Shown here one piece after another: positions 19,998 through 46,147 of a DNA stretch of 64,000 nt. Within the stretch, counting starts at the first letter, position 1. Each line of letters begins with the position of its first letter. The DNA comes from Halovivax limisalsi. GTDB taxonomy: Archaea; Halobacteriota; Halobacteria; Halobacteriales; Natrialbaceae. The translations under genes and the position numbers were made by a program. The DNA lies in NCBI RefSeq assembly GCF_023093535.1, contig NZ_CP095757.1, forward strand, positions 620,001 through 684,000. The letters are read 5' to 3'. The notes beneath the pieces are model-generated. The model had not been told where the DNA came from and made no database searches. It saw nothing but the letters and a program-made list of their open reading frames with translations.

Positions 19998-21461
19998 CTA
20001 GTCCGCGAGATGCCCGGCGGCGACCAGCGCCGCCTCGATCGACTCCCAGTCCGGGTCGACGCGCGGCGGCTCGCGTCGCCCGCCGCTCGCGGATCGCTGA
20101 CGCTCCCCGCTCGCCGTTCCGAGGCCGTTCGCTTCACTCGCGCCCTCGCCGCTCGCGGATCGTTGACGCTCCCCGCTCGCCGTTCCGAGGTCGCGAGCGA
20201 CCTCGCCATTTTTGAATCCGCTCGAGGTCGCGATCGCCACGATCGGCCCGTCGTCGAGTCCGAGCGCCGCTCCGCGGCCGTCGTCGACCGCGCGAGTGAG
20301 ACCGGCGATTCCGGCCGCGCCGGCCGACTCCTGCCAGGTCCCACCGTGAGCGAGCCGTTCCTCGGCGCCTTCGAGGTCGGCCGCCGTAAAGCCGATCGCC
20401 CCGCCCCCGGACTCCTCGACGGCTCGACGGCCGCGAACGCTCGAGGTCGTCGCCGCGATGGAGTAGGCCTCGGTGGGGTTCGCCCCCACGCTCGCGACGG
20501 GGTCGTCGGACGCGAGCGCCTCCCGGAGCGGCCCGCGCGCGGCGGGCTCGCAGGCCAGCATGCGCGGCGTCTCGTTGACGACGTCGAGATCTTCGAGTTC
20601 GCGAAAGCCCTTCCAGACGCCGTACAGGAGCTCCGCGTAGCACGTCGGCACGGCGACGACTCCCGGAACCCGCCCGAGATCGCGATAGAGTTCGTAGGCG
20701 ATCGTCTTGTACCCCTCCGGGCCCCAGGGGTGGCCGGTGTGGACTGGCGTCCGCGTACTGACCGGGTGGTAGCCCCGTTCGGCCAGCCGGTCGACAGCCA
20801 GCCGTCGCACGTCGCCGTCGGGGACCGCGAGCACCGTCCCGCCGTAGGCGCCGATGAACCGCGTGACGGCCGCCGGCGTCTCGGGAGCGGTGACGACGAT
20901 GGCCTCCAGCCCCGCCCGGGCGGCGTACGCGGAGACGGCGGCCCCGTGGTTTCCGGTGGAGGACGCGACGACCCCTCGCGCGTCCGATCGGACGGCCGCG
21001 CTCACGACGCAGCGCGCCAGGCGGTCCTTCTGGCTCCACGTCGGGTTCTGACTCTCGTCTTTCAGAAACAGGTCGGCGCCGAGACCGATCTCGGCGGCCG
21101 CGCGCTCCAGTTGAAACGAAGGGGTGCGTCCCTCCCCCATGCCGATCGGCGCGAGCGGCGGTAGCAGCGGCGCCCAGCGATCCAGACCCGACGGGCGGGG
21201 AGTTCCAGGGCCCGTCTCGTCGCTGGTGCCGGCGCGTCCCGCCTCGCGAGTCGCGGCGTCGCTTCTCGCGAACAGCGACGGGTCGACAGCATCGTAGTCG
21301 TAGGTCACTTCGAGCGGGTACTGAATCTCGTCCGTACTCGTCTCGGGACAGCCGCGGGTCAGCGGCGGTTCGAGCGGGTACTCGATCGACGGATCGCCCA
21401 GCGAGCGGAGGCCGGTGGCGAGCGATCGAGACCCGCCGCCGGGGTCGTTTTGCGACGGCAC
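19998..21461 (-). CDS. threonine-synthase-like PLP enzyme
   Basis: A 487-residue fold-type II pyridoxal-phosphate enzyme. The N-terminal zinc region of threonine synthases survives only in outline (CPETSTDEIQYPLEVTYDYD, Cys ligands mostly lost). The PLP lysine is K145 in NPTWSQKDRLA, and ASSTGNHGAA is the phosphate or carboxylate loop. The true substrate may differ from O-phosphohomoserine. Near the C-terminus the unit LGTASGERQRSASG appears twice, encoded by 43-base direct repeats. The start lies two bases after the S66 peptidase stop, so the two form an operon. Confidence 0.85.
   Translation of the reverse strand: MPSQNDPGGGSRSLATGLRSLGDPSIEYPLEPPLTRGCPETSTDEIQYPLEVTYDYDAVDPSLFARSDAATREAGRAGTSDETGPGTPRPSGLDRWAPLLPPLAPIGMGEGRTPSFQLERAAAEIGLGADLFLKDESQNPTWSQKDRLARCVVSAAVRSDARGVVASSTGNHGAAVSAYAARAGLEAIVVTAPETPAAVTRFIGAYGGTVLAVPDGDVRRLAVDRLAERGYHPVSTRTPVHTGHPWGPEGYKTIAYELYRDLGRVPGVVAVPTCYAELLYGVWKGFRELEDLDVVNETPRMLACEPAARGPLREALASDDPVASVGANPTEAYSIAATTSSVRGRRAVEESGGGAIGFTAADLEGAEERLAHGGTWQESAGAAGIAGLTRAVDDGRGAALGLDDGPIVAIATSSGFKNGEVARDLGTASGERQRSASGEGASEANGLGTASGERQRSASGGRREPPRVDPDWESIEAALVAAGHLAD
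20082..20190. repeat. in-frame 66-base tandem repeat inside the PLP enzyme gene
   Basis: A 43-base unit at 20082-20124 recurs at 20148-20190 with one mismatch, a period of 66 bases (22 codons), so it keeps the reading frame. It encodes LGTASGERQRSASG twice and is absent from the conserved part of the enzyme, so it was most likely inserted into a tolerant loop near the C-terminus. Confidence 0.75.
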
Positions 21462-25289: not shown

Positions 25290-25814
25290 GTGGCCGACTC
25301 GTCGCCGCCGATCTCGGTGCGACCCGCGACGCCCGACGACGAGCTGGCCGTCCGACGGATTCTCGACGGCGCGATGCTCGAATTCGCGGCGCTCACCCCA
25401 CGAATCGATGCGGACGATGTGCTGGTCGCAAGCGAAGCGCGGTTCGAACCCAGTGAGAACCGCGAAAACCCGAGCGGTGAAACCGCGAGCGAAGCGAGCG
25501 ACGACGAATCGATCCAGGGGGCGATCGTGCTCGAACCGGAACCGACGGCGACGGTGACGGAGGGGCTCGCGTCGAACGACGAGGCGTGGACGCAGTCGGC
25601 GGCGGCCGAACCCGGGGCGCACGTCGACGCGATCGCGGTCAGGATGCGCCGGCGCGGACGAGGGATCGGGGCGACGCTCGTCGAGCGGGCGCTGTCGCGC
25701 GAGGGGCGGTTGACCGCCCACTTCGACCAGCGGGTGCGGCCGTTCTACGAGGCGCTCGATTTCGAGATCGTCTCGCTCGACGACGGGCGCTTCGCGGGCG
25801 TTCGCAGGCGGTGA
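25290..25814 (+). CDS. GNAT N-acetyltransferase with an inserted repeat peptide
   Basis: A 174-residue GNAT protein with a GTG start. The acetyl-CoA loop is RMRRRGRGIGATLVERAL, and the C-terminal strand is RVRPFYEALDFEIVSL. Between helix 2 and the next strand (about residues 49-70) lies an insert of repeat origin, EARFEPSENRENPSGETAS, encoded by the dispersed element at 25432-25490. Acetyl target unknown. It follows samp2 by five bases. Confidence 0.88.
   Translation: MADSSPPISVRPATPDDELAVRRILDGAMLEFAALTPRIDADDVLVASEARFEPSENRENPSGETASEASDDESIQGAIVLEPEPTATVTEGLASNDEAWTQSAAAEPGAHVDAIAVRMRRRGRGIGATLVERALSREGRLTAHFDQRVRPFYEALDFEIVSLDDGRFAGVRRR
25432..25490 (+). repeat. dispersed 59-base element, copy inside the GNAT gene
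   Basis: This stretch is 52/59 identical to the reverse complement of 45902-45960 inside the CBS gene, and both are read in the same frame (S-E-A-x-F-E-x-S ... R-E-N-x-x-G-E-x-A-S). It carries two hairpins: GCGGTTC...GAACCGC (25439-25463) and GCGGT-GAA-ACCGC (25474-25486). Seen directly in the sequence; a mobile palindromic element is the inferred explanation. Confidence 0.8.
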
Positions 25815-45592: not shown

Positions 45593-46147
45593 TCAGCCCC
45601 GGTCGCGACCCCGGCCCTTCTGGCGCGTCGAGAGGGAGGGTCGCTCGCGCAGCCGGTCTGGCAGATGCCAGGCGACGTCGGACAGCGTGATGATCCCGAG
45701 CGGTTTCGACCCGCCCCGGATCGGGAGGCGCTTGACCTCGTGTTCCTGCATCGTCCGCAACGCCGCGGTCACGCTCGTCGTCGACGTCACCGTTACCAGG
45801 TCGGCGCTCATCACGTCCGCCACCCGCATCGATTCGAGCCGGCTGCGGCTCGCGGCTTCACCGTTCGCGTTTCCGAGGCCTCGCTGCCGCTCGGCCTCGC
45901 GGCTCGCGGCTTCACCGTTCGCGTTTTCGCGGTCCGCACTGCGTTCGAACCCCGCTTCGCTCCCGTCCTCGCCTTCCTGATACCACGCTCGCAACAGGTC
46001 AGATTCGGTGACGATTCCCGCCAGGCCGCCGTCGAGGACGACGACGCTGCCGACGCGCTCCTCGAGCATTCGCCCGACCGCCGTCCGGAGGGTGTCCTCG
46101 GGCGCGGCCGTCACCACCGGCGAGGACATGATCTCCCGGACTTCCAT
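45593..46147 (-). CDS. CBS-domain protein with inserted repeat peptides
   Basis: A 184-residue protein with a pair of CBS motifs that bind adenine nucleotides: MEVREIMSSPVVTAAPEDTL and MRVADVMSADLVTVTSTTSV. Between them lies an insert of about 40 residues (SEAGFERSADRENANGEAAS and NANGEAASR again) made by repeat DNA; the normal linker would be shorter. The final part (EHEVKRLPIRGGSKPLGIIT) completes the second CBS motif. Likely an energy-sensing regulator of an unknown partner. Confidence 0.87.
   Translation of the reverse strand: MEVREIMSSPVVTAAPEDTLRTAVGRMLEERVGSVVVLDGGLAGIVTESDLLRAWYQEGEDGSEAGFERSADRENANGEAASREAERQRGLGNANGEAASRSRLESMRVADVMSADLVTVTSTTSVTAALRTMQEHEVKRLPIRGGSKPLGIITLSDVAWHLPDRLRERPSLSTRQKGRGRDRG
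45845..45926. repeat. 28-base direct repeat inside the CBS gene
   Basis: A 28-base unit (GCGGCTCGCGGCTTCACCGT and on) occurs at 45845-45872 and again, perfectly, at 45899-45926. The period is 54 bases, or 18 codons, so the repeat keeps the frame and gives NANGEAASR twice. It overlaps the dispersed element below. Confidence 0.8.
45902..45960 (-). repeat. dispersed 59-base element, copy inside the CBS gene
   Basis: Reverse-complement match to 25432-25490 (52 of 59 bases). It encodes EAGFERSADRENANGEAAS in the same reading frame as the GNAT copy. Both hosts tolerate it as a loop insert. The first hairpin arms are less perfect here than in the GNAT copy. Confidence 0.8.

Follow-up and report, generated by a model that had tools for sequence, protein, structure and literature searches.

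Palindromic DNA that becomes part of protein-coding genes is best known from Rickettsia and Wolbachia, and there is one archaeal precedent, in a methanogen. As PMC2229807 summarizes Ogata et al. (2000), Rickettsia palindromic elements (RPEs) are palindromic repeats that lie between genes and are also fused in frame in unrelated, often conserved genes while missing from the orthologues, and the family of haloarchaeal repeats that we describe here shares these properties; the same paper cites Wolbachia palindromic elements alongside RPEs. By its description the two are nonetheless set apart, since RPEs measure 105–146 bp and comprise a long stem-loop with terminal inverted repeats, whereas our modules are 51–60 nt long and contain two separate hairpins. 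Unlike RPEs, the family also combines variable stems with a fixed tip, stacks in tandem, is linked to the 3′ ends of tRNA genes, and has archaeal hosts. The methanogen palindromic element (a 2005 paper cited in PMC2229807 and PMC2996958) is, as the citing papers describe it, likewise archaeal, palindromic, and possessed of coding potential, but its host is a methanogen and ours are haloarchaea.

Other repeats are similar in part. REP and REPIN sequences with RAYT (PMC3116915, PMC12306157) are short, dispersed, hairpin-forming, and sometimes paired, as are the copies described here; REPs are, however, mainly extragenic by definition (PMC12306157), whereas many of our copies are coding and the genome in which they were first noticed has no detectable Y1 transposase. 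PARCEL repeats (PMC2996958) are palindromic, encode protein segments, and spread between genes, again like our family, but they constitute amphipathic tandem repeat domains and, according to PMC2996958, none was present in the archaeal genomes then available. The genome paper on Natrialba magadii mentions only simple sequence repeats encoding peptide repeats (PMC3403918), and we found no earlier description of the family from haloarchaea in the open-access literature, though one may exist in subscription papers. The family has the appearance of a selfish DNA element that adds new pieces to core enzymes of salt-loving archaea.

We analysed a 64-kb stretch of the Halovivax limisalsi chromosome (the window), for which a preliminary description had reported a 59-base element inserted in two unrelated genes. 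The features concerned are, in window coordinates:

25290–25814, + strand: host gene 1, a GNAT-family acetyltransferase of 174 aa (Pfam PF13508 and PF00583 above cut-off)
25431–25499, + strand: module in the GNAT gene (SEARFEPSENRENPSGETASEAS), between strands DVLVA and GAIVL (identity to the CBS copy; missing from congener orthologues)
25438–25464, + strand: hairpin 1 of the GNAT copy, CGCGGTTC-GAACCCAGTGA-GAACCGCG, with an 8-bp stem (DNA folding, stem search)
25474–25486, + strand: hairpin 2 of the GNAT copy, GCGGT-GAA-ACCGC, with a 5-bp stem and a GAA triloop (DNA folding)
45593–46147, − strand: host gene 2, a two-CBS-domain protein of 184 aa (Pfam PF00571, two stretches)
45902–45961, − strand: module A in the CBS gene (SEAGFERSADRENANGEAAS), with decayed hairpins (BLAST match to the GNAT copy, folding)
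45848–45901, − strand: module B in the CBS gene (REAERQRGLGNANGEAAS), tandem to A, with its own hairpin GAGGCC..GGCCTC intact (profile match, stem, folding)
45839–45979, − strand: stretch between the CBS domains that holds a 42-aa net gain over orthologues (alignment with four congeners)
20081–20193, − strand: related tandem coding repeat near the C-terminus of a third gene, read GTASGERQRSASGEG (weaker similarity)

The GNAT and CBS copies are identical at 52 of 59 bases, the figure given in the preliminary description, and the match (E = 5.9e-17, BLAST within the window) is far beyond chance. Both copies are read in a single frame, as had been claimed, so that the encoded peptides are (S)EARFEPSENRENPSGETASEAS (GNAT) and (S)EAGFERSADRENANGEAASREA (CBS), and the two hairpins noted in the GNAT copy are both perfect on DNA folding, with stems of 8 and 5 bp. 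The bounds of the element need adjustment: the identity is real, but it starts one base earlier than was proposed, at the AGC codon at 25431 and 45961. Similarly, the CBS gene does carry the module that had been taken for a single 59-base insert, but the insert is larger and consists of two tandem modules, the second at 45848–45901. The folding z score is −2.4 for the GNAT copy and +0.6 for the matching CBS copy, in which the hairpins are largely lost. The GNAT copy lies between two strands and the CBS copies between the two CBS domains, and the flanking blocks align with those of congeners. In the third gene, which presumably encodes a protein resembling threonine synthase, judging from its translation, 47 nt occur twice at a spacing of 66 nt in copies that are 96% alike; the repeat is weakly similar to CBS module B and, from this similarity, is a probable distant relative of the element. 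A helicase stretch in the window read SGGETAS (~47300) was not counted, as the palindrome is absent from its DNA.

In all four other species of the genus in our genome collection, the insert is missing from the GNAT protein and the entire 42-aa stretch from the CBS protein, and the blocks on either side align well; GNAT orthologues were found in 44 of 61 relatives. Phosphoglycerate mutase (GpmI) carries a 51-nt insert in one species that is missing from eight of eight congeners at ~77–81% identity over the region, and an aldo/keto reductase gene, discussed below, has empty alleles. Absence from orthologues, which the preliminary description had put forward as a check, is thus observed in each of these genes. 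In more distant genera the GNAT loop is variable and may hold unrelated repeats, and the GNAT orthologue L074, from another genus, has an unrelated tandem repeat (EVRGERESSP, twice) in the same loop. Because it varies and can accommodate such repeats, the loop is, on the evidence of these alignments, a tolerant site, and the comparison suggests an insertion hot spot. Just 3′ of the insert-free GNAT gene of one congener lie three 46-bp tandem copies of hairpin 2 (L050, L053, and L056; G002:C1:1067479-1067606).

Further copies, for which a wider search had been recommended, are abundant, and many of them occupy a single frame within unrelated genes. The 3.89-Mb chromosome of H. limisalsi holds 7 copies at E<0.001, and each of the four congeners has 5 to 14. 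A neutral 69-nt consensus is matched at the DNA level in 54 of 125 genomes and 18 of 29 genera of the family, and in 102 of 392 genomes and 37 of 95 genera of the order, the genome counts being lower bounds with few candidates scored per genome. When a profile was searched against 0.46 Mb of the H. limisalsi genome, a sample that took in regions picked for holding copies and gives no estimate of density, nine matches were obtained at E<0.003, and none in a fifth-order Markov control fell below E = 0.58. An exact-pattern scan of genome contigs, with a pattern that was too strict, yielded one match, in Natrialba taiwanensis, and the plasmid collection yielded one weak, unannotated match. We conclude that the 59-base element is very probably one module of a dispersed palindromic repeat family of haloarchaea, present both in non-coding DNA and inside protein genes.

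The module, ~54–60 nt in length, is composed of two adjacent hairpins. Hairpin 1 combines a conserved tip, GA(A/G)C-GNA-G(T/C)GA, with a GC-rich stem that varies and reaches 8 bp at most, and hairpin 2 conforms to (A/G)CGG(T/C)-GAA-(A/G)CCG(T/C). The stem of hairpin 1 varies on both sides together, with the tip kept, and this holds in coding copies as well. Among 21 distinct coding copies, 81% of cells are paired versus 63% in shuffled alignments (0 of 500 shuffles as high), and the covariation score is 0.48 versus 0.20 when shuffled and ≤0.14 for structures slid by 1 to 3 columns; kinship of the copies inflates the shuffle control, and more weight belongs to the slid controls and to how many different stems occur. 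Within the tip, the A..T and G..C positions covary (38 GAACGAAGTGA and 24 GAGCGAAGCGA versus 2 GAGCGAAGTGA) and the middle base of GNA varies, while the inner pair of hairpin 2 in coding copies is T-A in 22 cases, C-G in 8, T-G in 3, and C-A in 1. DNA folding indicates that the hairpins are gone from some coding copies, so an inserted module can do without the structure.

These data bear on whether the peptides could instead be acidic low-complexity linkers of halophilic proteins that evolved independently and are alike by chance. Such linkers would be acidic and would sit in loops and linkers, as the encoded peptides do, and the unrelated repeats in the GNAT loop of other genera (L074) are what convergence would lead one to expect; but it accounts neither for the DNA identity between unrelated genes, nor for homologous copies in non-coding DNA, nor for base-pair covariation beyond any protein constraint. 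For the GNAT and CBS pair, the DNA identity and the existence of non-coding relatives refute convergence, and for the family we regard it as extremely improbable.

Mini-hairpins of single-stranded DNA are known to be exceptionally stable when a G-C pair closes a GNA triloop (PMC4686876). The C-GNA-G tips of our family fit this stability rule for d(GCGAAGC)-type mini-hairpins, which are, unlike the genomic tips described here, synthetic oligonucleotides (PMC4686876). By analogy, the GNA tips may hint at a step in which the DNA is single-stranded and in which they would play a biological role.

To class 166 distinct copies, we used codon log-odds computed on the flanking DNA, with the element excluded and six frames treated alike. 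By these log-odds, on which the gene calls rest, 24 copies are internal to genes, 4 are at C-termini, 112 are not called coding, and 26 flank an open reading frame on its start side, a mixed class that contains the GNAT copy (internal by the orthologue test) together with copies upstream of the real start. The coding strand is the sense strand of the element in 24 of 24 internal copies. Codon phase, counted for those internal and C-terminal copies whose second hairpin was anchored automatically, is the same in 19 and different in 2, both from one orthologous group, and unanchored copies outside that group have the same frame by translation. Counted by host gene, ~14 families use the main frame, one uses another sense frame, and none is antisense. 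The main frame reads ...ERSExxENASGETAS inside genes and is found in all internal copies bar the one orthologous group. Hosts include LeuRS, CarB, TrpA, GpmI, Kae1-Bud32, and aldo/keto reductase; among those confirmed by Pfam are tryptophan synthase alpha, phosphoglycerate mutase, leucyl-tRNA synthetase, the Kae1/TsaD half of a fusion protein, aldo/keto reductase, alpha/beta hydrolase, and carbamoyl-phosphate synthase. Aligned with solved TrpA sequences, the TrpA insert falls between two well-aligned blocks. Three matches from protein searches (L134, L138, and L144) were dropped, as they look like native motifs of their families and are no inserts. The exceptional orthologous group (L179, L194, L205, and L215) uses another open sense frame (AVRNEVRTADGARRSR) and has a perfect 8-bp hairpin.

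Among the six frames of the consensus, only the one observed is at once acidic (net −3), hydrophilic, and free of stops; one of the other sense frames contains stops and one is strongly basic (+8), and the antisense frames are basic, two of them also hydrophobic. Since no other frame has these properties, selection after insertion suffices to explain the frame, and frame-aware insertion is not needed. Such selection would set the frame by retaining an acidic, hydrophilic, and probably disordered loop of a kind that halophilic proteins tolerate. Copies of the family are palindromic, occur in frame in unrelated genes as well as between genes, and are missing from orthologues, and by this analogy the family is a protein-coding palindromic element that appears to work as the Rickettsia elements do. 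The preliminary description had drawn the same parallel, which is apt for the way of working; shared ancestry is no part of it. Its further proposal, of a mobile or copied element that spreads as coding DNA, agrees with the presence of copies in many genes, but the spread is not solely coding, as most copies are non-coding and many of these follow tRNA genes.

Stepwise gain is seen most clearly in the aldo/keto reductase gene, whose alleles within one other genus have inserts of 0, 60, 117, and 171 nt: the site is empty in two species, 60 nt are present in one and 117 nt in two, and another 54 nt lie upstream in one. In the 117-nt allele a second module, of 57 nt, lies within the first insert, and all resolved insert lengths are multiples of three. 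The empty site, CGCGAGGACG, is single and flanks the insert as a 10–11-nt direct repeat in the filled site, and the stem of the first hairpin (CGAGGAC/GTCCTCG) includes one copy of this repeat. The phosphoglycerate mutase insertion, the second of the two resolved sites, has no direct repeat. Alignment of these alleles shows that modules have been gained in genes, in some cases in succession at a single spot, and are missing from close orthologues; the tandem growth within single genes could in part be local duplication instead of new arrivals.

Clean empty and filled sites of this kind, one with a direct repeat that might be a target duplication, would be produced by a classical non-autonomous transposon, either a MITE or a REP/REPIN-like element mobilized in trans by RAYT or another Y1 transposase of the IS200/605 type, with the coding cases as by-products. 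The copies are also short, palindromic, and dispersed, and have two adjacent hairpins as in REPIN. However, the Y1 transposase domain of the IS200/RAYT type (PF01797) has no match in the H. limisalsi genome, although the same search was positive in control genomes including Haloferax volcanii, and no common terminal inverted repeats were seen in the alignment of copies. Duplication length is not constant, with one of the two resolved sites lacking any, and the aldo/keto reductase cassette occurs elsewhere in its genus with the direct repeat at its ends in other genes too. On balance we consider a transposon of this type unlikely.

The non-coding copies have a distinctive distribution. Of the 84 stronger copies not called coding, 28 are found downstream of a tRNA gene, at a distance of up to 600 nt and on its strand, 1 is on the opposite strand to the tRNA gene, none is upstream, and 55 have no tRNA within 600 nt. 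In the H. limisalsi genome (L102, L104-L108, L113, L241-L261; G000:C1:2922244-2922606), 15 of the 29 tRNA genes examined have their own 3′ end repeated downstream in one to three direct copies, counted by a 20-mer with up to 4 mismatches, and none has such a copy upstream. In each of these tRNA 3′ units, ~110–190 bp in length, an inverted copy of that tRNA's T-arm is followed by a hairpin, in many cases with the tip GAACGAAGTGAG, and by a further copy of the T-arm and acceptor end; the arrays could constitute a separate finding. Three ~175-bp tandem units lie behind one tRNA-Leu gene of this genome.

The same-strand, downstream position of the 28 copies, together with the conserved tip and covarying stems, raises the possibility that the hairpins function primarily as RNA or DNA structures, for example in the trailers, processing, or termination of tRNA transcripts, and that coding copies are accidental captures of them. 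The 55 copies remote from any tRNA gene do not fit this explanation, nor does the observation that neither 3′-end repeats nor tips follow about half of the tRNA genes that we examined. There is also no fitting Rfam family, as only tRNA and rRNA families reach the gathering score at six tRNA-linked loci, and functional structures alone do not explain repeated stepwise insertion at one spot in a coding loop. We regard this explanation as tentative, and lean against it.

A step through single-stranded DNA or RNA is suggested by the conservation of the tips while the stems covary, and by the shared orientation of the copies and the tRNA genes whose 3′ ends they follow. In the mechanism that we propose, one strand, single during replication or repair, would fold into hairpins, and the folded strand would be copied elsewhere by template switching or microhomology-guided insertion, a process to which we assign no enzyme. 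The direct repeat at the aldo/keto reductase insertion, present once in the empty site, would correspond to such microhomology. It is also conceivable, if rather doubtful, that what propagates is a folding rule and no fixed sequence: a GNA-tipped single-stranded DNA hairpin would keep its tip and acquire each stem by copying or matching local DNA, via fold-back synthesis or template switching without a transposase, and one process would have built both the tRNA 3′-end arrays and the loops of haloarchaeal proteins. Derivation of the stem from the host gene was rejected as a general rule; the aldo/keto reductase and the tRNA arrays agree with it, but the GNAT copy has the common stem of the family. 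The hosts are a large group of free-living archaea, some of them culturable and genetically tractable, and as sister species carry alleles with no module or with one, two, or three, the gain, tolerance, and copying mechanism of the modules are directly testable.

A related hairpin, ACGGG-GAACGAAGTGA-CCCGT, occurs at L029 (6246-6372) in two tandem 78-bp repeats that are read SSETRTGNEVTRERREGSEEAKATTD at the N-terminus of a protein, which we take from its translation to be ScpA-like.
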